A DNA stretch of 64,000 nt, from positions 1 through 64,000 of the forward strand of contig NZ_MSKS01000016.1 in NCBI RefSeq assembly GCF_001937445.1. Direction: 5' to 3'. The position numbers and the translations under genes are program-made. The stretch is from Actinomyces oris (GTDB lineage Bacteria > Actinomycetota > Actinomycetes > Actinomycetales > Actinomycetaceae). Of the stretch, positions 41,251 to 64,000 are shown one piece after another (positions within the stretch are counted from its first letter, which is position 1; each line of letters starts with the position of its first letter). The notes under the pieces are model-generated. The model was not told where the DNA came from, made no database searches, and worked only from the letters and a program-made list of their open reading frames with translations.

Positions 41251-41350
41251 CCTCACTTCTGAGACATTTGGGTGTCATGACTTCTGAGACGTTTGGGTGT
41301 CATGACTTCTGAGACGTTTGAGTGTCATGACTTGTGAGATGTTCGGTGGT
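41251..41350. repeat. Four 25-bp tandem repeats at the transposase 3' end of the IS
   Basis: Copies at 41251-41275, 41276-41300, 41301-41325 and 41326-41350 share the core CATGACTTCTGAGACGTTTG, with the outer ones diverged. The transposase stop lies at the end of the third copy. They resemble the terminal repeat and may be repeated transposase binding sites. Not a CRISPR: there are no spacers. Confidence 0.7.
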
Positions 41351-42632
41351 GTCGGGGTGGTAGCGGGATGAGTCTGTAGGGCGGTTTCTTGGTGTCGATG
41401 GTGGAGCGGTTGCCTTGCTGCCTCTGGGTGGGTTGGGGCCAGGGCAGGGACACGAAGCGGCGTCCGTCGGGGTCGTAGAGGTCCAGGCGCGTGGGGTACT
41501 CGATCAGGGTGACCTCGGTGCCGCGCATGGCCTTGCCCAGTGACAGGGCACGATCCTTGTAGGACACGCACCCGTTGGACATCACGGTGCGTCGGGCGCG
41601 GTCCACGGCACTGTCCGAGCCGGCCGGGTCGGTGGGGTCGGGCAGGCTGATGGGGCCGCCGCCGGCTGGGAGGCGATCCAGGTCGATGGGGGCCGGGCTG
41701 GCTAGGGCCCTGGGGGCCTGGGTCCATACCCTCAGCGGGGTCAGTGCGACGCCGTGGCCCTGGTGCTGACGCTCGGTGTTGTAGTAGCTGGTGAAGCGGT
41801 CCAGCTCGGTGTTGAGCTCCTCAAGGGTGCTGGCCGGGTGAGCGCGCAGCCAGGCGGCGGCCGGCTGGTGGGAGCGCTCGACCTTGCCCTGGGTCTGGGG
41901 GTGGCCCACCCGCCCGCTGATGGGACGTACCCCCAGGGAGGCCAGCCATTTCTCGGTAGCACCCGGACCAGTGGTGCGGCTGGTGTTGAACGCCAGCGCG
42001 TTGTCAGACAGGATCGCCGCCGGGCGCCCCCAGGTGGTGAAGGCCTCCTCAAGGACCATGCGGGTGCCTGCCACGCTCTCACCGCCCCAGCAGGCCCGCA
42101 GGGCGGTGATGACCCGTGAGCAGTCGTCAACGACCTGGTAGACGGTCACCACACGGTCCTCCAGGCGCCACTGGAAGCCGTCGATCTGCCACAGCTCGTT
42201 GGCCGCGCTGCGAGTGAAGCGCTTGTAGGAGGTCCTGGGCCGCTTGCGCGGGGCGGGGACCACCAGGCCGGCTCTGCGCAGGCTGCGGGCGATCGTCGCG
42301 CGCGAGGGAGCCGGGACACTGGCGCCCTGGCTCATCACCCACCACACCGAGACCGGCCCCGCCTCCCGGCCGGCAGCCAGCAGGTCGGCTCGCACCTGGG
42401 CGATGCGCTCATCAGTGCCCTGGTCCCACACCCGCGCCGGGTGGTGCGGAGCCCGTGAACGCGGCGTCAGCGCGGCAGCCAGTCCCTCGTGCTCAGCGCG
42501 TCGGCGTATCCGGTAGAACGATGCCCGCGAGATACCCACCTGAGCGCAGAACTCCTCCACACTCATCCCACTGGTCCTGGAGTCGAAGCCTATGACCTGC
42601 TCACGCCCAGACGGCGAAATCGAGTTACCCAT
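41325..42632 (-). CDS. IS481-family transposase
   Basis: 435 residues from ATG 42630-42632 (an upstream TTG is possible). An N-terminal helix-turn-helix (SVEEFCAQVGISRASFYRIRRR) is followed by an integrase core with the DDE triad: D in WQIDGFQW, D in AILSDNALAF, E in GKVERSHQ. The C-terminal part beyond residue 330 is a strand-rich tail as in other IS481 enzymes. No frameshift; likely active. Confidence 0.93.
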   Translation of the reverse strand: MGNSISPSGREQVIGFDSRTSGMSVEEFCAQVGISRASFYRIRRRAEHEGLAAALTPRSRAPHHPARVWDQGTDERIAQVRADLLAAGREAGPVSVWWVMSQGASVPAPSRATIARSLRRAGLVVPAPRKRPRTSYKRFTRSAANELWQIDGFQWRLEDRVVTVYQVVDDCSRVITALRACWGGESVAGTRMVLEEAFTTWGRPAAILSDNALAFNTSRTTGPGATEKWLASLGVRPISGRVGHPQTQGKVERSHQPAAAWLRAHPASTLEELNTELDRFTSYYNTERQHQGHGVALTPLRVWTQAPRALASPAPIDLDRLPAGGGPISLPDPTDPAGSDSAVDRARRTVMSNGCVSYKDRALSLGKAMRGTEVTLIEYPTRLDLYDPDGRRFVSLPWPQPTQRQQGNRSTIDTKKPPYRLIPLPPRHHRTSHKS

Positions 42633-42708
42633 ACCCCCAGGCAACCCACCCAACCAGTGTCTCAGATGTCATGACATCCGAAACTCTCAGAAGTCATGAG
42701 ACAACACA

Positions 42709-46145: not shown

Positions 46146-48452
46146 ATGTCTCAGACGACCATGACATCGGGATCCCCAGGGATGGGCAGCCCTGTTCGCG
46201 AGCGCGCCGAGGCCGTCCTGCGCGAGCTCGTTGGTCGCAGCGACGCGCACCTGCGTGAGGACCAGTGGCGGGCGATCGAGGCGCTTGTCATCGCACGCCG
46301 CCGCGCGCTGGTGGTCCAGCGCACCGGGTGGGGCAAGTCGGCGGTGTACTTCGTGGCGACGGTCCTGCTGCGAGAGGGCTGGGGAGCCTGGCGTCCGGGC
46401 GTCCCGCCGCCCTCCCCCGGTGCGCGCTCCGGCACCGGGGCCAGCGTCATCATCTCGCCGCTGCTGGCCCTCATGCGTGACCAGGTCACTGCCGCAGGCC
46501 GCGCCGGGATCCGGGCCGTGACCATGAATTCGGCCAACGTCACCCAGTGGGATGAGATTCAGGCCCAGGTGGCCGCCGGTGAGGTCGATGTCCTGCTGGT
46601 CTCCCCGGAGCGTCTCAACAACCCGGTCTTCCGCGATGAGGTGCTCCCCCATCTGGCTGCGAGCGCCGCGCTGGTGGTCATTGACGAGGCCCACTGCATC
46701 TCGGACTGGGGCCATGACTTTCGCCCCGACTACCGGCGCATCGGCACCCTGCTGGCCGGCCTGCCGCCGCGCACCCCGGTTCTGGCGACGACGGCGACCG
46801 CGAACCACCGGGTCAGCGCCGACGTCGCTGAACAGCTGGGGGCGTCCCTGGAGGAAGGCGGGGCAGGCGGCGAGCAGGTCCTGGTGCTGCGGGGGTCCCT
46901 GGAGCGCGACTCTCTCCACCTGGGGGTCAGGATGCTGCCGGATGCCGCCTCCCGCCTGGCCTGGCTGGCCGCCTACATCCGCCGCACTCCCGGCAGCGGC
47001 ATCGTCTACTGCCTGACGGTCTCGGCGGCGCAGGAGGTCGCCGAGTACCTGCGTGCGGCAGGTGCGGAGGTGGCCGCCTACACGGGGCAGACCGACGCCA
47101 CCGAGCGCGAGCGCCTGGAGGAGGACCTCAAGGCCAACCGGGTCAGGGCGCTGGTGGCCACCTCCGCTCTGGGGATGGGCTTCGACAAGCCGGACCTGGC
47201 CTTCGTGGTGCACGTGGGGGCTCCGTCCTCACCGGTGAGCTACTACCAGCAGGTGGGCCGCGCCGGTCGTGGTGTGCAGCGGGCTGAGGTGGTCCTGCTG
47301 CCCGGCCCGGAGGACCGGGCCATCTGGGAGTGGTTCGGCTCGCAAGGCTTCCCGCCCGAGGAGCAGGTTCGCGTGGTCCTGGACGCCCTGGAGGAGCGCA
47401 GGGCCGGGGGCGGTGGGGCGGCGTCCACAGCGGTGCTGGAGACGGTGACCTCGTTGCGACGCAGCCGGCTGGAGTCCACGCTCAAGGTCCTTGACGTTGA
47501 CGGCGCCGTGCGCCGGGTTCGTGGCGGTTGGGAGTCCACTGGCCGGCCCTGGTGCTACGACGCCGAGCGTTATGCGCGAGTCGAGGCCGCGCGCCGGGCC
47601 GAGCAGGAGGCGATGCTCACCTATGAGCGTCTCGGGGCCGTTCCTGCCCCCGGGCAGGGCTCGTCCCCCTGCCGGATGGCCTTCTTAAGGTCGGTGCTCG
47701 ATGACCCCCAGCTTGAGCCGGGATGGCGCTGCGGAACCTGCGACCTGTGCGGGGGCCTGGACCTGCCTGACGCCCCCGACCAGGAGCAGGTCGGTGCCGC
47801 CCGAGCGGCGCTGGGGCGCGCAGGGGTCGAGCTGCGGGCACGCCGCCAGTGGCCCACCGGGATGGACCGACTGGGCCTGAGCCATCTCAAGGGCCGCATC
47901 GGAGCCGACCGTCAGGCTGCGACCGGGCTGGCGGTGGGCAGGCTGGATGGGTTGGGGACCTCGGTGGCGCTGCGCGAGCTGGTGTCCTCCGCCGCCGACG
48001 GCGAGGTCCCGGTGGTGATCAGGCCTCAGGTGCTTGAGGCGGTGGACCGGCTCGCTGAGATCATCCGCAATGAGCAGGACGCCGCCGAGGTGAGCCGTCC
48101 GAGCCGGCCACCGGCCGTCGTCGTCGTGGACTCCCGCACCCGCCCCAGCATGGTCCGCCAGCTGGGGCACGCCGTGGCCACACGGCTGGGCGCACAGGCC
48201 CTGGGCGTCGTGGGTCTGGCCGGTCAGGATCCGCCGCAGCACGATGTGGGCTCTGCATTTCGCCTGGCACAGGTGGCCCGAAGCCTGACGCTCCAGGAGT
48301 GGGCGACTCAGGCCCTTGACGAGCTGCGCGAGCGCGTCGTGGTCCTCGTGGACGACTGGAGCGACTCAGGCTGGACGCTCACGCTATCGGCCTTCCTCCT
48401 GCGTGAGGCGGGGGCGGCGGCGGTCCACCCCTTCGTCCTGGCGCAGAGGTAG
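46146..48452 (+). CDS. RecQ-family DNA helicase with C-terminal PRTase-like domain
   Basis: 768 residues. Helicase motif I is QRTGWGKSAVYF, a variant of the RecQ TGxGKS loop; motif II VVIDEAHCISDWGHDFRPDY is pure RecQ; motifs V-VI include MGFDKPDLAFVVHVG and YYQQVGRAGRG. A C-rich zinc-binding segment (WRCGTCDLCGG) follows. The last 110 residues differ: PAVVVVDSRTRPSMVRQLGHAVA and VVVLVDDWSDSGWTLTLSAFLLREAGA have the PRPP-loop pattern of phosphoribosyltransferases in place of an HRDC domain. No ribosome site; probably leaderless. Confidence 0.92.
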   Translation: MSQTTMTSGSPGMGSPVRERAEAVLRELVGRSDAHLREDQWRAIEALVIARRRALVVQRTGWGKSAVYFVATVLLREGWGAWRPGVPPPSPGARSGTGASVIISPLLALMRDQVTAAGRAGIRAVTMNSANVTQWDEIQAQVAAGEVDVLLVSPERLNNPVFRDEVLPHLAASAALVVIDEAHCISDWGHDFRPDYRRIGTLLAGLPPRTPVLATTATANHRVSADVAEQLGASLEEGGAGGEQVLVLRGSLERDSLHLGVRMLPDAASRLAWLAAYIRRTPGSGIVYCLTVSAAQEVAEYLRAAGAEVAAYTGQTDATERERLEEDLKANRVRALVATSALGMGFDKPDLAFVVHVGAPSSPVSYYQQVGRAGRGVQRAEVVLLPGPEDRAIWEWFGSQGFPPEEQVRVVLDALEERRAGGGGAASTAVLETVTSLRRSRLESTLKVLDVDGAVRRVRGGWESTGRPWCYDAERYARVEAARRAEQEAMLTYERLGAVPAPGQGSSPCRMAFLRSVLDDPQLEPGWRCGTCDLCGGLDLPDAPDQEQVGAARAALGRAGVELRARRQWPTGMDRLGLSHLKGRIGADRQAATGLAVGRLDGLGTSVALRELVSSAADGEVPVVIRPQVLEAVDRLAEIIRNEQDAAEVSRPSRPPAVVVVDSRTRPSMVRQLGHAVATRLGAQALGVVGLAGQDPPQHDVGSAFRLAQVARSLTLQEWATQALDELRERVVVLVDDWSDSGWTLTLSAFLLREAGAAAVHPFVLAQR

Positions 48453-48495
48453 GGGCCGGTGGGCGATGCCTGAACAGGCATCGCCCACCGGCCCC
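48452..48495. terminator. Strong bidirectional hairpin between recQ and the polysaccharide operon
   Basis: A perfect 21-bp inverted repeat with a 2-base loop starts at the last base of the recQ stop codon and ends 22 bases before the convergent lipoprotein gene. No U tract on either side. It can end transcription in both directions. Confidence 0.8.
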
Positions 48496-48517
48496 GAAGT
48501 CCTAGAAGCCCAGTGCC

Positions 48518-50011
48518 CTAGAAACCAGTGGAGACGGCGGCCAGTGCCGGAGCCACCTGGCCCCCAGGGGTTCCGACCTGGTCCTCGAGGTAGTACCACC
48601 AGAAGGGGGCTCCCCAGGCATCGGATCGCCCCAGTGCCGCGCCGGTGACATGCTCGGCGACGGCGGTGCGGGCCACCGCGGGGTCGGAGGCCGAGCCGAA
48701 CCACCAGGGGCCGGTGTTGAGGTCCTCGCCCCCGTACCCGAGCTCGGTCACGGCAAGCCGGGAGGAGGCGAAGGCGGCCTCCAGGGTGCTCAGGATCCGG
48801 TCAGCTGCTGTACCCAGCGGATGGAGCTGGGGGTAGACCGACAGTCCCACGACGTCAACCAGCTCCCTGATCGATGCGGGGATCTCCTTGGCGGCATAGC
48901 TGAACAGGGAGTACGCCGGGTCCGCCTGCCCGAGCTGGTAGTACAGGGTCAGCACCGTCGTGGCGCTGGTGCGCTCACGCACAGCCTTAGCCGCTCGCTG
49001 GGCCTTGGCCACCGGCCCGGCGCCCAACCAGTCCCCTCCGATCTCGTTACCGACCTCCCAGGCGTCGACGTTGGGAAGCGCCTTGATGAGGGTGTCGACC
49101 CGAGTGTCCCAGGCGGAGTCGGTCAGGGAGACCATGTCGTGGGAGTCGCAGATCTGGGCCAGGGCCTGACCGCCCTGCGCGTGCAGGGCCTCCACCGTGC
49201 TGCGCCAGCCGGCCATCTCCTCGGCGTCATTGGGGTCACCGATCACGAGACGGGCCGACACCTTCCGCTTGCCGCCTCCGGGGCCGCTGGGGGCCAGCGC
49301 GGCGGCAACCTCCGCGGACGTGGGCACCCGAGTGAAGGTCACTCCGATGACGGCGTCCTGCGGCGCCTGAGCGGCCAGCGCCCGGTCCAGGGAGAGCTGG
49401 GCCCCTGCGGCCGACTCCAGGGCGGAGTTCGCCAGGCGGCCCCGCTCCGTCCAGGACTGGGCCTTGGAACAGGCGTCCAGGGACTGCTGGGCGGAGGCGC
49501 GCAGCTTTCCCGCCTCGTCAGCACCCTTGAAGCCCTTCGCGGTGGCCTGCTGGAGGCGCTCGGGCTGCCTCTCGTGGAGGGTTCGGGCCGCCAGCTCCAG
49601 GAGATCATGCTCGCCAGAGGCCGGCAGATCCGCCATGAGTGCCGAGTACCCGTGGCTGGTCGGCCACGACATGGTCAGAGTGCACTCGCGTCCGGTGGGC
49701 ACATCGATGCCGACGGCACCGCCCTCGTCCTGGTAGAGCGGGCCGACGGCGATGACCTCCAGGGTCTTGGCATCCAGCAGCGCGTCGTCATAGCCGACCT
49801 CGCCCTTGCCGTTGGACTGAATGCGTCGCAGCGCCTCGAGGTTGAGGGCGTTGCCCTGAGCATCACTGATGTGAAGGCTCAGGTGGGTGGTGGCCCCGTC
49901 CCCCACGGCCGGCGGGATCACGTTCGCGTGCCCGCAGGAGGACACTGACGCTCCCAGAATGCCAGTACCCAGGAGCGCCAGTATCCCTCTGCGGTTGGTC
50001 TCGAATGTCAT
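48518..50011 (-). CDS. Glycosidase-like TIM-barrel lipoprotein
   Basis: 497 residues. Signal NRRGILALLGTGILGASVSSCG has a twin-Arg and a lipobox Cys at about residue 26, so it is a lipoprotein on the outside. The C-terminal half reads like a clan A glycoside hydrolase: VDAWEVGNEIGGDWLG (candidate acid/base Glu after Asn), VVGLSVYPQLHP, and SSRLAVTELGYGGED (candidate nucleophile Glu). The N-terminal 200 residues are a separate all-beta plus helical region. I cannot name a GH family. It closes the polysaccharide operon, 94 bases after the DUF2334 gene, and could trim or release the polymer. Confidence 0.65.
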   Translation of the reverse strand: MTFETNRRGILALLGTGILGASVSSCGHANVIPPAVGDGATTHLSLHISDAQGNALNLEALRRIQSNGKGEVGYDDALLDAKTLEVIAVGPLYQDEGGAVGIDVPTGRECTLTMSWPTSHGYSALMADLPASGEHDLLELAARTLHERQPERLQQATAKGFKGADEAGKLRASAQQSLDACSKAQSWTERGRLANSALESAAGAQLSLDRALAAQAPQDAVIGVTFTRVPTSAEVAAALAPSGPGGGKRKVSARLVIGDPNDAEEMAGWRSTVEALHAQGGQALAQICDSHDMVSLTDSAWDTRVDTLIKALPNVDAWEVGNEIGGDWLGAGPVAKAQRAAKAVRERTSATTVLTLYYQLGQADPAYSLFSYAAKEIPASIRELVDVVGLSVYPQLHPLGTAADRILSTLEAAFASSRLAVTELGYGGEDLNTGPWWFGSASDPAVARTAVAEHVTGAALGRSDAWGAPFWWYYLEDQVGTPGGQVAPALAAVSTGF

Positions 50012-50105
50012 GGAAGCAGTATTCCAGTCTTGTGAGAGACATTTCGACCGAACGGTCTCATGTCCGTGATTCCGAGACCGCTGAATCTCACAGTCGGCGT
50101 CGTGG

Positions 50106-52061
50106 TCATCTCAGCTCCGAGGCCGGCACGAAGGTGTACCCCTCGGCCTTGATGCCGGCGACGATCTTCTTCAGCTCGGCCAGCGGGTAGTAGGGGTGGA
50201 AGAAGAAGCTGGCGGTGGCGTGAGTGTTGACCAGGTTGAGCTTGGCGGCGTCGATGATCTCCTGAGCCAGGCGCGGCGGGTGCTGGTTGATCTCGTTGGG
50301 CTCGAAGTTGCCCAGGTTCTCGGGCAGGACGTGGGCCCCGTAGGGGTCGTTGACCGCGTAGGGGAAGAACTGCCCGTAGTAGTCGAACGGACCGGCCTGG
50401 GTGTTGGTCAGGGTGCCGGCGTAGAGGAGCTCGCGCTCGTAGCGCACCGGGTAGTGCTCGCCGATTCCGTAGTAGGCCTCACGGGTGGCCGAGTAGTGCG
50501 GGGTCTCGAAGATCTCCGGAGTCGGCAGGTCGACCTCCCCGAAGATCTGGCGTCCCTGATCCACGCGCTCGGAGGCCCATTCCTGGGAGGTACCGGGCAG
50601 GGCGCCCCCGATCTGGACGAAGGACTTGTCCTGGCAGTCGATGGCCGGGGCCTTGGTGTCGTTGGTGGCCGAGCACCACGAGCGGATGAACTCGAAGTCG
50701 TCGGCGGAGACGGCGTTGTAGGGGTTGTCCAGGGTCCCGAACTGGTGAGTGGTGCCGTGCTGAACGATCGTTCCGCCCTTGTTCACCGCGTCCTGGATGA
50801 CGGCCACCAGCTCCGGGGCGTCCTCAAGAGTGAGCTCCTTGGGCTCCCCGTCGTTCTCAGTGCCCTTGGGGTCGATGTACTTGGGCACCACGGCCATCTG
50901 GAAGGGCACGTTCTGGCTGTAGAAATAGTCGACGATCGCCTGCAGCTCCTCGGGGTCGCTGTCCGGGGTCACGTCCTCCAGGCGCACAGCGGCCTGACGG
51001 AACTGCTGGGCACCGGGCTGGAGGAAGTCCAGGAGGATGTCGGCGGCTGCGATGTAGCGGTCCTGCTCACCCAGGTAGGTCAGAGGGATCTCACCGATGA
51101 AGGTCATTCCCGAGGAGCTGACCGCCCAGGGGAAGGAGCTGGTGCCGGACTGGGCGACGGAGGCGCAGGCGGTGGCCGCTCCGCCGGGCTTGGAGCACTC
51201 GGCGCGCCCGAGGACCTTGACGTCCTTCTCGCGGGTGATGTGTGGGGCGATGATGCCACCGGTGTTGAGCTCGTTGCGCTTCAGGGAGGCGCCGTTGTAG
51301 CTGATCTTGGTGACCCGGTCAGTGGAGTCGATGTAGGAGGTGGCGGCGTCCCAGCCGTAGCGCTGGGTGAAGGCGGCGCGGTCGGCGTCGGTCTTGGCCA
51401 GCTGCCAGATGTTGAAGCCGGACCACATGACCGGGATGTTGCCGGTCAGGGTGTCGTCGATGAAGGCCCGCGGCAGGGGCTCGTCGTAGGTGGAGCCGAT
51501 GTAGACCACGTTAGTGAAGCGACCGGCCAGGCCGGCGACGTAGTCCTTGACCGGGAGGGTCGTCACGGTCCCGGAGTGGCTGGCCAGGGTGCCCATGCTC
51601 AGGGCGTAGTACTCCCCCAGCTTGGCGTAGTCACCGGTGGTGTCGAACAGAACCAGGGTCGATGCCGGCCCCGCCTCCTGGTTGGAGAAGGTCACCGCGC
51701 CGGCAGGAACCTCGGGCGCGTTCTGCTTCAGGTCACGGATCTTGACCTGTCCCGCGGCGGGCGCGGGCTTGTTGAGGTCCACGTCTGCCTGCTTGTCGCC
51801 CTTGAGGGGGAGCTCCTTCTTGGCCGCAGCGGCCGGCTCGGGCGGAGCCGGAAGCGGTTTCTTGGCCGGGTCGGCGTCGTTGGCCTGGGCCCCGCCGGCG
51901 GGCTTGGCCGCGGCGGCCTGGACCGCCACGGGAGGCTGCGCGCCAGCGGTGGGGGCGGCCTGAGCAGGGCCCACCGCGGCGATGGAGCTGCCCAGGCACA
52001 CCGCGATGGCGGCCAGTGCGCAGCGGCGTCGTCGTGCAGACACAAGGGTCGGGAGGATCAT
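50106..52061 (-). CDS. Secreted DUF2334 deacetylase-like protein
   Basis: 651 residues, ATG 52059-52061. Sec signal (ALAAIAVCLGSSIAAVGPAQA) then an 80-residue Ala/Pro/Lys-rich linker, then a beta domain, and from residue about 360 a DUF2334 domain, a relative of polysaccharide deacetylases (CE4). Putative catalytic set: Asp in RLEDVTPDSD, metal His pair in QHGTTHQF (435 and 439), ETPHY (about 519-523) and FFFHPYYP (about 622). All expected residues are present, so it is probably active on an N-acetyl sugar polymer outside the cell. ATGA overlap with the epimerase gene. Confidence 0.8.
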   Translation of the reverse strand: MILPTLVSARRRRCALAAIAVCLGSSIAAVGPAQAAPTAGAQPPVAVQAAAAKPAGGAQANDADPAKKPLPAPPEPAAAAKKELPLKGDKQADVDLNKPAPAAGQVKIRDLKQNAPEVPAGAVTFSNQEAGPASTLVLFDTTGDYAKLGEYYALSMGTLASHSGTVTTLPVKDYVAGLAGRFTNVVYIGSTYDEPLPRAFIDDTLTGNIPVMWSGFNIWQLAKTDADRAAFTQRYGWDAATSYIDSTDRVTKISYNGASLKRNELNTGGIIAPHITREKDVKVLGRAECSKPGGAATACASVAQSGTSSFPWAVSSSGMTFIGEIPLTYLGEQDRYIAAADILLDFLQPGAQQFRQAAVRLEDVTPDSDPEELQAIVDYFYSQNVPFQMAVVPKYIDPKGTENDGEPKELTLEDAPELVAVIQDAVNKGGTIVQHGTTHQFGTLDNPYNAVSADDFEFIRSWCSATNDTKAPAIDCQDKSFVQIGGALPGTSQEWASERVDQGRQIFGEVDLPTPEIFETPHYSATREAYYGIGEHYPVRYERELLYAGTLTNTQAGPFDYYGQFFPYAVNDPYGAHVLPENLGNFEPNEINQHPPRLAQEIIDAAKLNLVNTHATASFFFHPYYPLAELKKIVAGIKAEGYTFVPASELR

Positions 52062-53260
52062 GAACGCTCCTTCGATGAGGTGGGAACAGGTTCGAACTCG
52101 GGAAGGGGGACACCGCGGCCGAACAGGGCTGCGGTGGCGGCCAGGATGCGCTTGCACGCGTGTCCGTCACCGTAGGGGTTGGCGGCCTGGGCCATGGCTG
52201 TGTAGGCCGTCTCGTCGGTCAGCAGGGTGGAGACCCTCTCAACGATGCGCTCCTCGTCGGTTCCGACCAGCTCGGCGACCCCGAAGGCGACGGCCTCGGG
52301 ACGCTCGGTGTTGTCCCGCATGACCAGGACGGGCTTGGACAGCGCGGGGGCCTCCTCCTGGACGCCGCCGGAGTCGGTCAGCACGACGTCGCAGCGGTCG
52401 ATGAGTGCGCAGAAGGCGCCGTACTCCAGTGGGTCGCACCAGATGACGTTGGCATGGCCCTCGATCTGAGGCAGGAGGTCCTCGCGAACCTTGGGGTTGC
52501 GGTGGACCGGCAGCACGAAGAGCACCTCGGGATGCCTGTCGGCCAGGCGCGCGACGGCGCGGCCGATGGCCCGCATCGGCTCGCCCCAGGACTCACGGCG
52601 GTGGGCGGTGACGAGCACGACTCGCCGGGAGGCGTCCTTCAGTGCTGCGGCCAGCTCCTCATCCGGTGGCGGGACCCGGCGGTCGACGGCGACCAGGAGC
52701 GCGTCGATGACCGTGTTGCCGGTGACGCTGACGGTCTGCGGGTCGGTGTTCTCGCGCAGCAGGTTGTCCCGGCTGGTGGTGGTGGGGCACAGGTGCAACG
52801 TGGTCACCTGGCTGATGAGCCGCCGGTTGGCCTCCTCGGGGAAGGGTGAGGAGATGTCCCCGGTGCGCAGGCCGGCCTCGACGTGGAGGACCGGCACCTC
52901 GTGGTAGAAGGCCGACAGCGCGGCGGCGAAGGCGGAGGTGGTGTCCCCCTGGACGATGACGGCGTCGGGCCGGTGGGCCTCGATCGCCCGCCCCACCCCT
53001 TGCAGACAGCGGTTGGTGATCTGGGTGAGGGTCTGCCCCGGCGAGTGGATGTCGAGGTCGTCGTCGGGCACGATTCCGAAGAACTCGTGCACCTGGTCGA
53101 GCATCTCACGGTGCTGCCCGGTAACGACGACGATCGGATTGAAACGCTCGTCGTCGCGCATGGCGGCCACCAGGGGGGCGAGCTTGATCGCCTCTGGGCG
53201 GGTGCCGTAGACGAGCATGACTCTCAGGGGGCCACCCGTTTGCGTGGAGTCGGTTGTCAT
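52058..53260 (-). CDS. wecB: UDP-N-acetylglucosamine 2-epimerase (non-hydrolysing)
   Basis: 400 residues from ATG 53258-53260, preceded by AGGAGAA. Makes UDP-ManNAc from UDP-GlcNAc. Motifs: MLVYGTRPEAIKLAPLV, VVTGQHREMLDQV, HVEAGLRTGD, VTAHRRESWGEP, VVLTDSGGVQEEAPALSKP. The operon setting says it supplies ManNAc for the surface polymer made by the GT2 synthase. Confidence 0.93.
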   Translation of the reverse strand: MTTDSTQTGGPLRVMLVYGTRPEAIKLAPLVAAMRDDERFNPIVVVTGQHREMLDQVHEFFGIVPDDDLDIHSPGQTLTQITNRCLQGVGRAIEAHRPDAVIVQGDTTSAFAAALSAFYHEVPVLHVEAGLRTGDISSPFPEEANRRLISQVTTLHLCPTTTSRDNLLRENTDPQTVSVTGNTVIDALLVAVDRRVPPPDEELAAALKDASRRVVLVTAHRRESWGEPMRAIGRAVARLADRHPEVLFVLPVHRNPKVREDLLPQIEGHANVIWCDPLEYGAFCALIDRCDVVLTDSGGVQEEAPALSKPVLVMRDNTERPEAVAFGVAELVGTDEERIVERVSTLLTDETAYTAMAQAANPYGDGHACKRILAATAALFGRGVPLPEFEPVPTSSKERS

Positions 53261-53344
53261 GGGGTTCTCCTGGTCGTGTGTCGGGAGTGGGACGAGGTGG
53301 GCCTCAGCGGTGGTTGAGTCCGGCGCTGTCGTCAAGGGCAGGCC

Positions 53345-54064
53345 TTACTTGTCCTCGGTGATCGGGGTGAAGGTGACGTCGGAGTCCTCGCAGTAGGCCG
53401 CCACGGTGCCGGAGCGGTAGGGGGACTGCTTGTCGGTGACGGTTCCGAGCTCCTGCCCGTCCACGATGATGGTGAAGGTGACTTCCGACGACTTGGTCGT
53501 GTCAATGGTGACGGTGACGTCGTGGCTCTCCCCGGGCGGGTAGACGGGTGTGTTGCCCGATGACAGGAATCGCTGGTATCCCGGGTAGGCGGTGTCCTGT
53601 TTGGAGACCTCCCAGCCGTTGGGCTTGAGGGCCAGAGCGTAGAAGTGGTTGTTGTCGGTGTAGTTCCACAGGAGCCAGGCGACCTCCCAGGCATTGGGCT
53701 CGCCGTCCTCTCGCAGCTGCTTGACGGTGGTCATCGTGGTGTGGATGGTCTGGACGCCTCCCGCCTCGATCTCGACCGTGGTGGAGGTGGCCAGACCGGC
53801 GTGGGTCGTGTCATGGGAGTTGGCCGACGTCGGCTTGAGGCGCAGCAGGCCCTCGGAGCACGAGGCCTCGCCATAACCATCGAAGATGATCTCCCACTGG
53901 GAGCAGTCCGGCGTCTCAGTCCCTGTCTCTCGGGCGTGGCAGTACACGGTGACTCCTAGAACCAGTGCCAGGACGCAGACCGTCAAGAGGGCGCGACGCA
54001 GGATCCTGCCGCGACGAGAACCGTCGACGGCTCCTGCATGCTGAGGCGCGTTGGCAACTGTCAT
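53345..54064 (-). CDS. Membrane-anchored LamG/DUF1080-like protein
   Basis: 239 residues: short basic N terminus, one membrane helix (ALLTVCVLALVLGVTVYC, about residues 25-42), then an extracellular beta-rich domain. WLLWNYTDNNHFYALALKPNGWEVSKQDT is the pattern of the concanavalin-like sugar-binding fold. Likely binds the polymer or holds the export complex; catalysis is not evident. ATGA overlap with the GT2 gene. Confidence 0.7.
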   Translation of the reverse strand: MTVANAPQHAGAVDGSRRGRILRRALLTVCVLALVLGVTVYCHARETGTETPDCSQWEIIFDGYGEASCSEGLLRLKPTSANSHDTTHAGLATSTTVEIEAGGVQTIHTTMTTVKQLREDGEPNAWEVAWLLWNYTDNNHFYALALKPNGWEVSKQDTAYPGYQRFLSSGNTPVYPPGESHDVTVTIDTTKSSEVTFTIIVDGQELGTVTDKQSPYRSGTVAAYCEDSDVTFTPITEDK

Positions 54065-55623
54065 CTCATCTCCTCATTGGTCAGGCGACTGGCTGTAGGA
54101 CGGGGACGCCGCACGATCACAGCAGTGGGGTTCAGCAAGGGGCGGGCCGGGACAGCCGGCACAGCACTGCCCGGACCTGCGCCCTGAGGGGCCGCCAGGG
54201 GCTCCACCCTCACCGGCTCGCTGGGCGGCCGCTGCTTGCTCGGTAGCGGCGAGCCCACGGCTGCTGCTCCATGGGAGCCGGCCACCGACCCGCTGGGCGC
54301 GCCCTGCGCTCCTTGAGCCGGTTCAGCCTCCCGCGCGGTCTTGGCCCACCCGGTGCGTCCGGTCAGCTCCCGGGCGACTGCTCGCCAGCCGTAGAGGCTG
54401 GGAAGGAGTCCATAGAGGACGAACAGGTGCGCGTAGCCCACGGACTTGAGCAGGTTCAGACCCTCGCTGCGCTCGATGCGCCAGTAGATCCAGGCGTAGA
54501 TGAGCGCCGGGCCGAAGGCAATGACATAGGCCCCCACGAGCCATGCCCATGACTGCTCCCACCTCAGGACCGCGGCCACACCGGCGGTCACCATGGTGAT
54601 GAGGAAGGACAGGGTCAGCAGGGAGCCAGTCAGGAGCAGGTAGGGCGTAAGTACCTGCCAGAGCGTGTCGGCCCGCCCCAGGCCGCGCTGTTCGCGGGCC
54701 ACGGAGCGCAGCAGGTGCAGTGCCTGGAGGTTTCCCTGGAACCAGCGGGTGCGCTGACGCATGAGACGGCGCATGCTGGTCACGCCCTGCTGGTGAACGG
54801 AGGCCGCGGGCCAGAACTCGTTGGTCCAGCTGGTGGCGTTGAGCCGGATCCCCAGGTCGAAGTCCTCGGTCAGCGACCGGGTCCAGGGCCGGGGTCCCAG
54901 GGCGTCGAGCGCGCTGAGGCGGACGAACTGGGCGTTGCCGCCCATGCCGACACTGCGGACTCGGCGCCGGCCTCGCTGGAAGACCTCGGTGAAGATCACG
55001 AACTCCATGTCCTGCATGCGGGCGAGCAGGGAGCCGAAGCGGTTGTTGATGCGCACCCCCATCTGAACGGCGCCGACCTCCTGCGGGGCGAAGGCCTTGC
55101 GCACCTCCCCGATGGCGTGGGGGTCGAGCCTGCCGTCGGCGTCCATGACTCCCACGACGACTCGCGAGGACGACACCGTGGTGCATCGGGAGCGCACGAT
55201 CGATAGTGCGTCGTTAAGAGCCTCCCCCTTACCCAGGCGGGCGTGGGGAGGACGACGGCGAACCACCTCGACACGCTCGTCGCCGGCCTGGGCGGCCACC
55301 TGGGCGGTGTCGTCGTCGGAGCCGTCGTCGATGACCATGATGCGCAGGCCCGGGTCCGGGATTGAGGTGAGCCGTCTGACACTGGCACCGATGACCTCCG
55401 CCTCGTTGAGGCAGGGCATGAGGATGACGATGAGCAGCGGGGCATCGGGGTGCGAGGGCCCGCCGTGCCGTGGGGCACCGCGCGAGGCGATGAGCATGAA
55501 GAAGGTGTAGGCGAGAGCGACTGCGATCATCCCCAGGGCACCCCACCAACCGATGCGGTCGAGGATTCCCAGGGGGCTTGAGGAATCGAAGCTCATAGAC
55601 GGAAACGGGGCCTGGGTCCTCAT
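54061..55623 (-). CDS. GT2 processive glycosyltransferase (polysaccharide synthase)
   Basis: 520 residues from ATG 55621-55623. One N-terminal helix, a cytoplasmic GT-A domain, then four or five C-terminal helices, as in PgaC, hyaluronan and cellulose synthases. Catalytic residues: MVIDDGSDDDT (UDP), VGVMDADGRLDP (metal DxD), LTEDFDLGIRL (base) and MRQRTRWFQGN (the Q/RxxRW acceptor motif). The enzyme would build and extrude a beta-linked homopolymer; with an adjacent WecB, a ManNAc- or GlcNAc-type polymer is likely. A 90-residue Pro/Ala tail follows the last helix. Confidence 0.9.
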   Translation of the reverse strand: MRTQAPFPSMSFDSSSPLGILDRIGWWGALGMIAVALAYTFFMLIASRGAPRHGGPSHPDAPLLIVILMPCLNEAEVIGASVRRLTSIPDPGLRIMVIDDGSDDDTAQVAAQAGDERVEVVRRRPPHARLGKGEALNDALSIVRSRCTTVSSSRVVVGVMDADGRLDPHAIGEVRKAFAPQEVGAVQMGVRINNRFGSLLARMQDMEFVIFTEVFQRGRRRVRSVGMGGNAQFVRLSALDALGPRPWTRSLTEDFDLGIRLNATSWTNEFWPAASVHQQGVTSMRRLMRQRTRWFQGNLQALHLLRSVAREQRGLGRADTLWQVLTPYLLLTGSLLTLSFLITMVTAGVAAVLRWEQSWAWLVGAYVIAFGPALIYAWIYWRIERSEGLNLLKSVGYAHLFVLYGLLPSLYGWRAVARELTGRTGWAKTAREAEPAQGAQGAPSGSVAGSHGAAAVGSPLPSKQRPPSEPVRVEPLAAPQGAGPGSAVPAVPARPLLNPTAVIVRRPRPTASRLTNEEMR

Positions 55624-56018
55624 CACGCTCGCAGACTCATCAGGCCGCTGCGCTGCTGAACGTGGCGTCCGGCGGTGCGCCGGGGGCGCGGGAGCAGGGC
55701 GCGGGCCGCGCCATAGAGATTGGTCAGCAGGAAGAAGGCCAGGATGGCGACGAACACCAGCCCGGCGCAGTCGATGAGGAAACGAGCGACGAGAGCGGGA
55801 GGGGAACCTGCCGGGGCGACATACCACACGACGAACAGTCCGGTTCCGGCGGCGAATGGGGAGTAGTGCATGAGGCCATCCATCTGGATCCAAGGGGTAG
55901 GGCCGATACCGACTGTCATCACCGCATTCGCGAGCAGTTCCAGCCGGTACCAACGCCTCGGTGCGACGCGCCCGGGGATGACGGGATGTGGGAACTCAGC
56001 CCGTCGGGCACGGCGCAC
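55623..56018 (-). CDS. Small membrane protein, first gene of the polysaccharide operon
   Basis: 131 residues from GTG 56016-56018; ATG at 55917-55919 would give about 98 residues. Two hydrophobic segments (GTGLFVVWYVAPAG and LVARFLIDCAGLVFVAILAFFLL) followed by a basic end. Not recognised. Its stop shares one base with the GT2 start (TGATG). It may be a synthase partner. Confidence 0.6.
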   Translation of the reverse strand: MRRARRAEFPHPVIPGRVAPRRWYRLELLANAVMTVGIGPTPWIQMDGLMHYSPFAAGTGLFVVWYVAPAGSPPALVARFLIDCAGLVFVAILAFFLLTNLYGAARALLPRPRRTAGRHVQQRSGLMSLRA

Positions 56019-56033
56019 CGTGCGTCACCACCA

Positions 56034-56061
56034 AATATAACAATAGAGTAACGCTTTGCAA
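56034..56061 (-). promoter_or_regulatory. Promoter of the polysaccharide operon
   Basis: Minus strand TTGCAA (56056-56061) and TATATT (56034-56039) with a 16-base spacer, in a markedly AT-rich island. The start point near 56027 lies just before the GTG at 56018, so the leader is very short. Confidence 0.6.
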
Positions 56062-56119
56062 CACTGTGCCATTCGACCATGCAATAAGCGTCCTCTTGGA
56101 GATGGCTCACAAGGACTGA

Positions 56120-56141
56120 AAGTGGCGGGATTCCGCCACTT
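56120..56141 (-). terminator. Hairpin past hisD
   Basis: AAGTGGCGG-GATT-CCGCCACTT, a perfect 9-bp stem, lies 84 bases beyond the hisD stop and before the polysaccharide promoter. It probably ends hisD transcription and insulates the two units. Confidence 0.6.
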
Positions 56142-56224
56142 GAATCGTCAATGAATCCAGATCTGCATCGTCCCCACCCGTCTGACGCATCAGGAGATGG
56201 TCACGAGTAGATCACAGTTCGATC

Positions 56225-57592
56225 TCACAATGCGTGTTCAGCAGCCTTTTTCACTGTCTGGCGGGCACGGGCCGCCTCACCGTGGGCGGGCAGATCCTCA
56301 CAGCTCGCCAGGACCTCCAGTGCCGGTGTCATGGCCTCCAGGGCGCTCGCACTGTACTCGATGAGCTGCACCGGTTTGAGGAAGGCCATCACGTTCAGTC
56401 CGGCAGCGAACCGGGCAGTCCCACCGGTGGGAAGGACGTGGTTGGAGCCGGCCAGGTAGTCGCCCAGGGGCACAGGGCTGTAGGGTCCGATGAAGATGGC
56501 GCCGGCGTTGCGGATCCGGCGCGCGACCTGAGGGGCATCGAAGGTGTGGATCTCCAGGTGCTCGGCTGCGTAGGCGTCGGCGACCTCGATGGCCTGCGCG
56601 AGGTCGCGCACCAGGACGGTTCCCGACTGCGGTCCCCTCAGGGCGGTCGATGCCCGCTCCCGGTGCCGGGTCTCGCTGAGTCTGCGCTCGAGTGCCGCAT
56701 CGACTGCGTCGGCCAGCTCCGGGGAGTCGGTGATGAGGACACTGCCGGCATTGGGATCGTGCTCCGCCTGGGAGAGCAGGTCGGCGGCCACGTACTCGGG
56801 GTCGGCCCCGGCGTCTGCCAGGACGGCGATCTCGGTAGGACCCGCCTCAGCGTCGATGCCAACCCTTCCCATGACGGCTCGCTTGGCGGCCGCCACGTAG
56901 ATGTTGCCGGGACCGGTGATGACGTCCACACCCCGGCACAGGACCTCTCCCCCGGCATCCGCGCGGTCGGTGTCGTCCTGGGCGTCGGCACCGTAGGCGA
57001 GCATCGCGATGGCCTGGGCGCCGCCGACGGCGTAGACCTCGGTGATCCCCAGCAGCGCGCACGCCGCCAGGATCGTGGGGTGGGGCAGACCGGCGAACTC
57101 GGCCTGAGGCGGGCTGGCCAGGGCGATCTGCTCGACGCCGGCGACCTGGGCGGCCACCGCGTTCATCACCACGCTGGAGGGGTAGACCGCCAGCCCTCCG
57201 GGAACGTAGAGCCCGACCCTTTCAACGGGGATCCAGCGCTGGGTGACGGTGCCGCCGGGGACCACCTCCGTGGTGCGCTCGGCGGGCACCTGGGCGGTGT
57301 GCCCGGCCCGGTTGTGGGCGATGGACAGCTCGAGGGCCTCGCGCACCGCGGGGTCCAGGCCGTCGAGCGCCTGGGTGATGGCAGCAGCGGGCACACGCAG
57401 GTGAACGGGTCGCACGCCGTCGAAGCGCTCGGCGGCGTCACGCAGTGCGGCCGCTCCCCGGGATCGGACGTCCTCGATGAGTGGAGCCACTGCGGCCTGG
57501 GCGGCGGTGACGTCAAGGGTGGCCCGGGGCAGGGTCTGTGCCAGCTGGCGTGCGGAGAGTCGGGTGCTGCGCAGATCGGTGCGGGTGAGCAT
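56225..57592 (-). CDS. hisD: Histidinol dehydrogenase
   Basis: 455 residues from ATG 57590-57592. Zn/NAD enzyme for the last two histidine steps. Marks: [63 protein letters not shown] and [14 protein letters not shown] with the zinc ligands. Orphaned from hisC by about 15 kb. Confidence 0.96.
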
Positions 57593-61871: not shown

Positions 61872-64000
61872 TCAGTCGGCCATGCGACGGCGCACCAGGA
61901 TGAAACCGCCGCCCAGGGCGATGGCGGCCACTGCCAGGACGATGCCGGTCATGCTGGCACCGGTGAGAGGAAGACGGCCATCGCCAGTAGCCGCAGCAGC
62001 CGCAGCGGCCTGGCCCTGACCGCCCTGAGCGTTGCTGCCGCCGGGCTTGGCGATGCTGGAGTTCTTCTGGCCGGCCCCCGCCTTGGAGTCAGAGGGACTG
62101 GCGCCCTGTGTGTTCTTGCCGCTGGCGTCAGAGGCCCCGTCGGCAACGGTGGAGCCGTTGTTGTCGGCCTTGCCGCCCTTGTTGGTGTTGCCGCCCTTGC
62201 CGCCGTTGTTGGCGTTGCCACCGTTGTTGGCAGCCTTGTCGCCGTTGTTAGCGGCCTTACCGCCGTTGTTGGCGTTGTCAGCGGGGGCGTCCCCGGCACC
62301 GGGGACGGCTCCGCCACCCCAGGCGACGTTGACGAGCGCACCGCGGTCCACGGCAACGTTGGCGTTGACGCCGAGGGTCTTGGCGATGTCCTCGGGCAGG
62401 GCGTGGCCGTTACCGGAGGCGGGGCTTCCCTCCTTGAGGTGGAAGTCCGAGGTCTTGTCCATCGGGTTGGCCGACTCCTTGACGAAGAACGGGTTGTTCT
62501 CCGGGGAGCCGTGCAGGTCCAGACCGTTGGACTCCTTACCCGCGGCCTTGACGCTCGAGCTGGCCGTGAAGTCGGCGAGCTTCTCGGCGTTGACCGACTG
62601 GTTCATACGGTCGGCGCCCCAGTTCCACAGGACCGTGGTCGACAGGGTCTGGGGGTTCTCCTGGCGGTAGTAGACGTCGTAGTCGATGCTGGAGACCATC
62701 TCATTGGCGTAGACCGCGCCGGAACCGTCCTGGTTGGCCCCACCCAGGACCTGGACCATGGCCGAGTAGCGCCACGGGTCCCCGGGCATGGGGGTGGTCT
62801 GCTCGGAGGAGAAGATGTTGTTCATCACCTGGGTGTTGGTGGTGTCCCAGCTCAGTCCGTGCTCGGCGCTCCACTTCTGCACCTGGGTGCACACGCCCTG
62901 GGCGTTACGGGCGTTGCAGCCGTCGGAACGGGTGTCCTCCTGGATCCACAGGCTGGTGAGCGCGTGGGAGACGGTGTTGTTCCACACGCGGGTGTCGTTG
63001 GACCCGGAGACGTGGATGCCGATACCGGCCCCGGCCACGATGTTGGAGGCGATGAGGTTGTTGGAGGAGACCTCGTTGAAGATCGCCACCGGGACGTTGA
63101 CGAAGTAGTTGCCGACGATCTCGGAGTCCATCACGCCCTCGTCGAACCAGACACCTGCGGCACGGTTCTGGTCATAGGCAGCGGGGTCGGAGATGTCCGT
63201 GCCGGTGGCCGAGTAGTCCACGGTGTTGTTGGCGAAGCGGATGTTCTTGGCGTGGGTGATCTTGGTGTCGGCCAGGGTGCAGTAGGCGCCGCAGTCCTTC
63301 GTGATGAAGCCGGAGGTGTTGTTGTTCCTCCACAGGTTGTTCTCCACCTTGGCTCCGCTGGAGTCATTGATGCCGAAGGCGTTGGAGCCGTTGTTCTCGA
63401 ACAGGTTGTTCGACACGACCGCGTTGGTCGAGTCGATGACCTGCAGCGCACCGGCGGTCGAGGAGTAGCGGAAGGTGGAGTTCTCGATGCGAGGAGCGCC
63501 GTGAGCGACCACAACCGTTCCACCACCGGAGATGGTGCCGATCTCAGGGTCGTTGTAGTCCCAGCGCTGCACCGCGGAGTACTTCTCCACCGTCAGTCCC
63601 GACAGGGTGATGTTGTCGGTGTTGAAGGACAGGGCGCGGGAGTGCTGGACCACCTCGACCTGGTGCTGGTTGGGGTCGACGCCGATGACGTAGGAGGTGC
63701 CGCGGTGCGGCTTGACGTTGTAGCCGGCCTGGTTGTTGTTCGGGTTCTTCAGAGTGACCGGGTCGGGGTCATCGACGAAGAAGGTGGACTCGGTGACCTC
63801 GGCGCGGCTGAGCACCTGGGTCAGGGGCTTGCCATCGACGAACACCTGCTCGGGGTGTGCGGCGATCCCCTCCTTGGCGGGGTCGGCGTTGATGGTGCAG
63901 ACCGTGCAGAAGCGGACCATGTCCTTGCCCGTGGACCACTTCCCGTCGCCGCCGGCGTTCCAGCTCGTGGGGACCTCCGCACCGGTGAGGACCGGCTTGG
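61872..64000 (-). CDS. LPxTG-anchored right-handed beta-helix surface protein, 5' end missing
   Basis: The frame runs off the right edge with no stop, so at least 708 residues. Repeated short strands with Asn ladders (VVSNNLFENNGSNAFGI, VENNLWRNNNTSGFI, NNLIASNIVAGAGIGIHV) are a parallel beta-helix of the pectate-lyase fold, a sugar-binding or sugar-cutting scaffold. A 110-residue low-complexity ANNGGK-type repeat follows, then LPLTG, a membrane helix and RRRMAD, a complete sortase signal. It should be covalently attached to peptidoglycan. Catalytic residues cannot be judged without the missing part. Confidence 0.9.
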   Translation of the reverse strand, partial: KPVLTGAEVPTSWNAGGDGKWSTGKDMVRFCTVCTINADPAKEGIAAHPEQVFVDGKPLTQVLSRAEVTESTFFVDDPDPVTLKNPNNNQAGYNVKPHRGTSYVIGVDPNQHQVEVVQHSRALSFNTDNITLSGLTVEKYSAVQRWDYNDPEIGTISGGGTVVVAHGAPRIENSTFRYSSTAGALQVIDSTNAVVSNNLFENNGSNAFGINDSSGAKVENNLWRNNNTSGFITKDCGAYCTLADTKITHAKNIRFANNTVDYSATGTDISDPAAYDQNRAAGVWFDEGVMDSEIVGNYFVNVPVAIFNEVSSNNLIASNIVAGAGIGIHVSGSNDTRVWNNTVSHALTSLWIQEDTRSDGCNARNAQGVCTQVQKWSAEHGLSWDTTNTQVMNNIFSSEQTTPMPGDPWRYSAMVQVLGGANQDGSGAVYANEMVSSIDYDVYYRQENPQTLSTTVLWNWGADRMNQSVNAEKLADFTASSSVKAAGKESNGLDLHGSPENNPFFVKESANPMDKTSDFHLKEGSPASGNGHALPEDIAKTLGVNANVAVDRGALVNVAWGGGAVPGAGDAPADNANNGGKAANNGDKAANNGGNANNGGKGGNTNKGGKADNNGSTVADGASDASGKNTQGASPSDSKAGAGQKNSSIAKPGGSNAQGGQGQAAAAAAATGDGRLPLTGASMTGIVLAVAAIALGGGFILVRRRMAD

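Follow-up and report, generated by a model that had tools for sequence, protein, structure and literature searches.

Between hisD and recQ, the first 64,000 nucleotides of contig NZ_MSKS01000016.1 of Actinomyces oris (hereafter the window) carry six closely packed genes, all on the minus strand (operon span 48518-56018), and the locus raises the question of what these genes make together. A. oris lives, as do A. naeslundii and A. johnsonii, in dental plaque, where surface glycans govern adhesion. The operon, whose genes are called A to F here in their order of transcription, likely makes one secreted, partly de-N-acetylated polysaccharide based on N-acetylmannosamine (ManNAc). The evidence consists of the gene content, the conserved linkage, the active-site residues and the predicted folds, together with the linkage of DUF2334 genes to WecB and a processive-type synthase in several phyla.

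In the proposed pathway, D, a WecB-type epimerase, would convert uridine diphosphate (UDP)-activated N-acetylglucosamine (UDP-GlcNAc) into UDP-ManNAc in the cytoplasm, and B would polymerise UDP-ManNAc and export the chain across the membrane, probably with the help of A and C. Outside the cell, E, with a metal bound by D363, H435 and H439, would remove acetyl groups, so that the remaining chain would contain mannosamine and be positively charged and adhesive, and F would cut this chain for clearing, length control or release. The system would work in a manner similar to the Nfr pathway of Escherichia coli, which serves the receptor glycan of phage N4 (NGR), in a Gram-positive cell that has no outer-membrane pore and with no sign of control by cyclic di-GMP (c-di-GMP). 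We infer how the chain is exported, what A and C contribute, on what E and F act and that there is such a polymer.

Conservation and linkage of the six genes

A search of 99 relatives, 49 of them in the genus (window genome included), with F, E, B and D as queries found B and an operon-type D together in the same 30 genus genomes, with E in 29 of these and F in all 30. Eight further genomes of the genus carry F (38 of 49 altogether) and 11 carry none of the genes; the carriers include A. oris, A. naeslundii and A. johnsonii. The fetched loci follow the order A to F, with A present in part of them. The B-C-D and E-F order is kept across the 29 operon-bearing genus loci that were fetched, and hisD lies within the fetched stretch of all 29, mostly at one end; in two genomes (G041 and G040; loci L106 and L107) it sits inside the operon, between D and E. 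Outside the genus, B, D and E were found in G051 and G074, and E, F and C share one contig in the fragmented genome G090. The genes of this neighbourhood, which a first-pass annotation made from the window alone had presented as one pathway, occur together again in the genus and beyond, so the lack of co-occurrence that would have refuted that reading was not observed, and since it is conserved in other genomes, a chance grouping of the six genes is excluded.

Among named genomes, the neighbourhood of E was examined in the best 80 of 186 loci, taking about 10 kb as the neighbourhood and requiring at least 250 bits for B, with own bit cut-offs for the other genes. D (WecB) was found near E in 74 of these loci, B in 70, C in 41 and F in 19. 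With regard to the ten loci without B, six carry another member of glycosyltransferase family 2 (GT2) that is 37-40% identical to E. coli NfrB (two of these were also scanned with NCBIfam), in three (L150, L192 and L201) E is at most about 2.2 kb away from the end of its contig, and the last (L209) has a weak, distant match to B only. The genomes of the relatives, which measure 1.5-5.3 Mb, give 0-4 WecB-like hits each, and by our own rough estimate a WecB gene would lie within 10 kb of a given gene by chance in about 1-2% of cases.

Relatives of E also occur in Streptomyces, Actinoplanes and Frankia. E and F keep their order in L150 and L202, and are neighbours on opposite strands in L159. Where Actinomyces has F, a gene of the glycoside hydrolase (GH) 113 type stands beside E in 12 loci of the Streptomyces/Actinomadura group, and a GH113-like gene stands beside WecB in three Myxococcota loci (the Pfam GH113 model was run on one locus per group, L167 and L184). 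A mannanase-type hydrolase next to a UDP-ManNAc epimerase fits a chain of beta-ManNAc or mannosamine, although it does not prove it. Plasmid records hold three E relatives, from Streptomyces, Comamonadaceae and Burkholderia, and the Streptomyces plasmid has WecB and a GT2 beside its copy. Among phage records, neither E nor F found a match within the limits set, and a phage link for these two genes was dropped for that reason.

Encoded proteins and their surroundings

Gene B (54061-55623, minus strand; 520 aa) encodes a processive-type synthase that matched GT2 in the family scan and has membrane helices; here and below, signal peptides, lipobox and membrane helices were assigned by eye from the sequence. 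It carries DxD (D161/D163), TED (252-254) and QRTRW (290-294), the last being the canonical QxxRW; the first two motifs had been read correctly at first pass, and the third, then given as RxxRW, is corrected here. All three are invariant across 21 aligned B rows (the window and 20 of the 31 fetched loci with B), and QxxRW is present in all 31 B-type rows of a wider tree set. In a tree of 45 GT2 rows, in which B is represented by the window and 30 of the named loci that have it, the 31 B-type rows group in a single clade (96/98), as seven NfrB rows do in another (100/100). ArnC and YfdH, the two lipid-linked GT2s tested, fall outside both clades, and this position, together with the processive motif set, separates B from these two; a grouping with non-processive enzymes, which would have refuted the earlier reading, was thus not seen in this tree.

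The best NCBIfam model for B is the XrtP-associated GT2 (281.9 bits, below the cut-off of 520), and PgaC/IcaA (TIGR03937) reached 89.7 bits, far under its cut-off of 422. The NfrB model is absent among the 18 NCBIfam matches of B, and a Frankia B row matched the NfrB-group model weakly (23 bits; cut-off 431). By these comparisons, B appears to function like NfrB without being NfrB. In L101/L135 (G001/Actinomyces sp. oral taxon 170), the coding sequence of B falls into two frames close to the low-complexity tail at its C-terminus, which may be decay or a sequencing error.

Gene A (55623-56018, minus strand; 131 aa, GTG start) encodes a small, poorly conserved membrane protein that gave no match in Pfam and NCBIfam-type family scans; it was found in 15 of the 31 fetched B-bearing loci and, with a threshold of 20 bits, in 19 of the 80 named loci, 17 of these in Actinomycetaceae, and appears to be a lineage-specific extra. 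Gene C (53345-54064, minus strand; 239 aa) encodes a membrane-anchored protein whose own family matches, including Laminin_G_3, are all sub-threshold, and searches of PDB sequences with its profile gave no convincing relative. A C homologue in Frankia (L165) reaches 30.1 bits with PF06439, above the cut-off of 26.8, and a jelly-roll fold is therefore likely for C. Gene C and the end of gene B have 4 bases in common, and C is a possible partner subunit of the synthase. The protein had previously been described as a LamG-like surface holder, of which the membrane anchoring and the indication of a jelly-roll-like fold stand and the polymer-holding role was overstated. The alignment of C comprises 20 of 32 fetched loci with C and that of E 21 of 31 with E, each with the window added.

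Gene D (52058-53260, minus strand; 400 aa) encodes WecB, the non-hydrolysing UDP-GlcNAc 2-epimerase that yields UDP-ManNAc, with matches to TIGR00236 (463 bits, cut-off 210) and PF02350. It is the sole WecB match of the window genome at an E-value of 1e-20, and 25 of the 30 operon-bearing genus genomes have a second WecB-like gene elsewhere (33-38% identical). The linkage of the WecB gene to the synthase gene in the operon corresponds to the WecB-supplied UDP-ManNAc of the Nfr/NGR pathway, and ManNAc would be the building block of the polymer.

Gene E (50106-52061, minus strand; 651 aa) encodes a secreted, two-domain protein that matches DUF2334 (PF10096) with 162.8 bits, far above the cut-off of 26, and is 95% identical to the E of A. 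oris CCUG 34288. An alignment of 43 sequences from Actinomycetota, Nitrosomonas and Myxococcota, made up of the window and 42 of the 80 named loci, shows no variation at R360, E362, D363, H435, H439, P521-H522, R543 and H622, with H435 and H439 forming an HxxxH motif. Because of the analogy with the deacetylases Agd3 and NDST1, E362 is predicted to be the base, D363, H435 and H439 the metal ligands, H622 the acid and R543 a base-side arginine. The AlphaFold2 model (predicted local distance difference test, pLDDT, 85.8) resembles deacetylases of the carbohydrate esterase family 4 (CE4) type from about residue 350 on, with ArnD at Z 18.9 over 224 aligned residues and a root-mean-square deviation (rmsd) of 2.9 in VIA-align. 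The top Foldseek match is human NDST1 (E-value 7.7e-11, 589 columns), which is ahead by almost four orders of magnitude. Agd3 is not among the 50 fold rows listed for E in either Foldseek or VIA-align, which proves nothing, and no convincing relative came up when PDB sequences were searched with profiles of E, with neither Agd3 nor NDST1 among the four profile hits. The full CE4-like metal set ascribed to this DUF2334 protein at first pass is matched by invariant catalytic residues and by a deacetylase fold in the predicted model, which suggest that E is a polysaccharide de-N-acetylase.

Gene F (48518-50011, minus strand; 497 aa) encodes a lipoprotein-like putative glycosidase of clan GH-A. 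No Pfam family matched F up to an E-value of 0.5, nor its copy in L202 up to 0.01, and the GH113 and GH53 models were unmatched. The AlphaFold2 model (pLDDT 86.6) has a clan GH-A barrel from about residue 212, behind an N-terminal region; its fold matches include GH53 (Z 23.2) and a GH164 beta-mannosidase (Z 21.9) in VIA-align, and GH113 mannanases are among the top Foldseek rows. In this model, F fits clan GH-A in its (beta/alpha)8 fold and in the position of the catalytic glutamates after strands 4 and 7. E319, N322-E323 (predicted acid/base) and E423 (predicted nucleophile) are invariant in 30 rows, which comprise the window and 29 of the 41 loci with F, including eight genomes with F only and two distant copies from G051, and omit two F genes with split frames. 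E323 and E423 align with the glutamates of a GH113-type profile (probability 66%, moderate), and the F profile gave a weak GH53 match in the PDB (E-value 1.8e-4). The description of F as a glycosidase-like lipoprotein agrees with the predicted fold and both catalytic glutamates. A single family of F, GH113 and YbcH is not claimed, as the GH113-type and DUF4434 profiles do not match. In G051 (L121 and L122), two distant F-like genes that are 28-32% identical lie elsewhere in the genome and keep both catalytic glutamates.

The genes are closely joined, with overlaps of 1 nucleotide between A and B and of 4 nucleotides each between B and C and between D and E, and with gaps of 84 nucleotides between C and D and of 94 between E and F, the latter being the longest of the operon. 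A scan of 48300-56300 gave one sigma-70-like site (shuffled sequence mean 0.3) and no terminator-like site (2.2 expected). The promoter-like site (56061-56034, minus strand) reads TTGCAA-16-TATATT with a TG before the -10 and ends about 16 bases before the GTG of gene A, so the gene coordinates and the scan bear out the six leftward genes behind one promoter-like site. The operon had also been described as inserted in the his locus, which holds insofar as hisD flanks it; its other flank is recQ, and the gene at 39848-40990, which from its sequence we take to be hisC-like, lies about 7.5 kb beyond the operon. A DDE-type transposase-like open reading frame (ORF; 41325-42653, minus strand), read from the sequence only, lies between this gene and the operon. 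Further away, a 682-aa ORF (61872-63920, minus strand) has beta-helix-like repeats and a C-terminal LPLTG-type sorting signal, both recognised by eye, and is a probable wall-anchored surface protein.

Lone hydrolase genes and rival explanations

A number of observations weigh against a single pathway for one ManNAc-based polymer. The NGR itself is just proposed as a ManNAc polymer. The 80 named loci were kept, by their similarity to the window's E, from 186 relatives confirmed in a scan with the E alignment, and in an even draw over the phylum an E relative was found in 10 of 396 genomes, the window's included; the distribution of the system across the phylum is patchy. The gene set also varies, as G027 (L105) has B-C-D-F without E and with hisD between D and F, G051 has B-C-D-E without F alongside, and the Burkholderia plasmid relative of E is accompanied by diguanylate cyclases, with no Nfr or WecB match in the fetched stretch. 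With regard to the synthase, VED replaces TED in 10 of 31 B rows (seven from Micromonosporaceae and three from Pseudonocardiaceae), no C was found in nine of these ten loci (L189 has one), and neither F nor a GH113-type gene was found in any of the ten at the cut-offs used. The deep placement of B among PgaC, BcsA and NfrB is unsure, with the references on long branches, and B, in its separate clade, is not an NfrB orthologue. The superposition of E on NDST1 is weak globally (template-modelling score 0.34/0.29, rmsd 10) and NDST1 is not among the 50 VIA-align rows listed for E, and therefore the two-domain kinship of the model with NDST1 is just a lead. Additionally, F occurs without B-E in eight of the 38 F-bearing genus genomes and adjoins hisD in seven of the eight; because F persists in these genomes, its substrate need not be the operon polymer. 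In two operon-bearing genomes, G011 and G045 (L116 and L114), F is split between frames through decay or sequencing error, and F may thus decay in operon carriers too.

The lone F genes were followed in two trees, in which L105 was placed in neither group and the counts of state changes do not tell losses from gains. In the F tree, which omits L120-L122 (no F or distant F only), the F-only label needs five changes, and the minimum forced by well-supported branches is also five. In the HisD tree, which holds six of the eight F-only genomes (L124 and L125 dropped out), four changes are needed and three are forced. The F-only state arose several times, most simply read as B-E having been lost repeatedly and F retained, because F stays by hisD and close relatives keep the operon (in the HisD tree, G047 stands beside G013). 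The ratio of nonsynonymous to synonymous substitution rates (dN/dS) of F is 0.13-0.36 in six operon pairs; in two F-only pairs it is 0.16 and 1.19, the latter at a very low dS (0.034), and continued selection on the lone F is therefore not settled.

What the operon makes could also be a synthase-dependent polysaccharide of another or mixed composition, built from UDP-GlcNAc or another donor (a PNAG-like chain, where PNAG is poly-N-acetylglucosamine, or a copolymer), with ManNAc as a minor component and with E and F acting on that chain. The two best NCBIfam models of B, both under cut-off, would agree with this, as would the fold similarity of E to deacetylases for which chitin, peptidoglycan and xylan are named as substrates, and the many substrates spanned by clan GH-A, in which F is closest in fold to a galactanase. 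It appears unlikely, however, given the WecB gene near E in 74 of the best 80 loci, the GH113-related genes (a beta-mannanase family) that accompany E or WecB in 15 loci and the score of B far below the PNAG synthase cut-off. UDP-ManNAc is also used in the linkage units of wall polymers, and the WecB of the operon, as the sole match of the window genome at the E-value given above, might supply ManNAc for a teichoic-acid-type linkage unit or a wall polysaccharide, with B as a non-processive wall glycosyltransferase. Such a wall-linked glycopolymer seems highly improbable, since B keeps DxD, TED and QxxRW in 21 of 21 aligned rows and stands apart from ArnC and YfdH, the second WecB-like gene of 25 of the 30 operon-bearing genus genomes would suit wall synthesis, and the eight window proteins scanned matched no family of the TagA or LCP type.

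There is, furthermore, a rather small chance that F stands outside the pathway, as an independent hydrolase by hisD that acts on foreign or host glycans and has B-E next to it for reasons of the locus only. The eight genomes with F and without B-E, in seven of which F adjoins hisD, the five changes of state in the F tree, all five forced, and the E-F gap as the longest of the operon speak for this view. The E-F order is nevertheless kept in the E-bearing operon loci of the genus as well as in L150 and L202, with the two genes still neighbours, on opposite strands, in L159, and another clan GH-A family, of the GH113 type, takes a place beside E in the 12 Streptomyces/Actinomadura-group loci. 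Returning to the favoured reading of one secreted, partly de-N-acetylated ManNAc-based polymer, a wider proposal can be made tentatively, at somewhat less than an even chance. WecB, a processive GT2 and an NDST/Agd3-like DUF2334 protein may together form the core of a class of cationic mannosamine polymers that spans phyla and has gone unrecognised; two separate GT2 clades (B and NfrB) would serve this class, and different clan GH-A or GH-like hydrolases would be swapped in it. The Actinomyces lineages that lost the synthesis genes may have retained the hydrolase to consume or break the polymer that their neighbours make.

Comparison with known polysaccharide systems

The closest functional parallel is the Nfr/NGR pathway. 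In E. coli, nfrBA-ybcH and wecB serve an exopolysaccharide required by phage N4, and the passages concerned in PMC8669469 and PMC8669472 propose the NGR as a ManNAc polymer made by NfrB from WecB-derived UDP-ManNAc and describe ybcH as not essential. PMC8669469 mentions an acetyltransferase cluster in some loci and rare Gram-positive NfrB homologues; the string 'deacetyl' is absent from its text and occurs once in PMC8669472, about phage tailspikes. The operon shares with this pathway a processive GT2, WecB-made UDP-ManNAc and an accessory protein. Unlike it, the operon adds DUF2334, C and a clan GH-A protein and has its synthase in a separate GT2 clade, whereas no DUF2334 gene is annotated in the nfr region of E. 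coli K-12. NfrA_C had no match among the eight window proteins scanned, which belong to a Gram-positive cell; this search covered those eight proteins and not the rest of the genome. As for c-di-GMP control, B gave no match to the MshE-type domain (NF053729) and GGDEF gave none in the window genome, in a search whose control was positive in 8 of 14 genomes; by its sequence, the window genome may be without c-di-GMP synthesis.

The DUF2334 family of E is nonetheless encoded in Nfr-type loci of Nitrosomonas, Myxococcota and a Comamonadaceae plasmid. The gene order in Nitrosomonas is DUF2334, WecB, NfrB-type GT2, NfrA-type tetratricopeptide repeat (TPR) protein and DUF4434 (the YbcH family), where profiles identified NfrB and NfrA_C in L208 and DUF4434 in L172, and tblastn the remaining copies. 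Three loci of Myxococcota (L184, L186 and L204, with family profiles run on L184 alone) have DUF2334 ahead of genes for an NfrB-type GT2 and for an NfrA-type protein, and nearby WecB adjoins the GH113-like gene; L200 has DUF2334 with NfrB and NfrA similarity (tblastn) and no WecB in the stretch. The annotation of the Comamonadaceae plasmid lists wecB, a glycosyl transferase (39% identical to E. coli NfrB), a hypothetical protein, DUF2334, a TPR protein and DUF4434. The presence of DUF2334 alongside NfrB- and NfrA-like genes ties the operon to the Nfr/NGR pathway, and the first-pass remark that no described system with this composition is known therefore went too far. Two side observations concern these loci: Nitrosomonas communis has two tandem DUF2334 genes (82% identical in their main part) before wecB and nfrB (L208:9740-13452), and a gene for an FGE-sulfatase-domain protein lies beside the DUF2334 and NfrB genes of a member of the Myxococcales (L184:7771-9636).

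Among deacetylases, E shares with Agd3 (CE18) and NDST1 the acidic base-metal pair, the HxxxH motif and the acid histidine, and differs from both in having Glu, not Asp, before the metal Asp. According to the relevant parts of PMC7229062 and PMC10864358, Agd3 also has a later base-side arginine, as E does, and its bacterial relatives accompany GH114 and Pel-like genes, with WecB unmentioned there. The Pss polymer of Listeria, as described in part of PMC11439720, is likewise Gram-positive, associated with biofilm and built on a beta-1,4-ManNAc backbone with its own hydrolase, PssZ, although it has galactose side branches; this is a comparison by description and not by gene homology, and the stem 'deacetyl' is absent from that paper. 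The PNAG systems (Pga/Ica) and Gram-positive Pel follow the same logic of synthase, deacetylase and glycosidase. The operon differs from PNAG in that B scores far under the PgaC/IcaA cut-off and in that its precursor enzyme is a 2-epimerase, and the window proteins scanned matched no Pel family.

No earlier description of the operon, including for Actinomyces, was found in the open-licence literature searched, where DUF2334 is named in a single paper, from 2013. If the favoured reading is true, the operon would provide, in a Gram-positive organism, a counterpart of the glycan that phage N4 uses as its receptor on E. coli and whose chemistry is not yet settled, and E and F would be dedicated enzymes and possible tools to identify both polymers. 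It would also give DUF2334 proteins of the E type a function, in polysaccharide de-N-acetylation. The operon lacks defining features of both Nfr/NGR and PNAG-type systems and is filed as a variant of the synthase-dependent exopolysaccharide systems. Compared with these known systems, it is best read as a Gram-positive counterpart of the NGR pathway that has its own deacetylase, and not as a member of the Nfr family.

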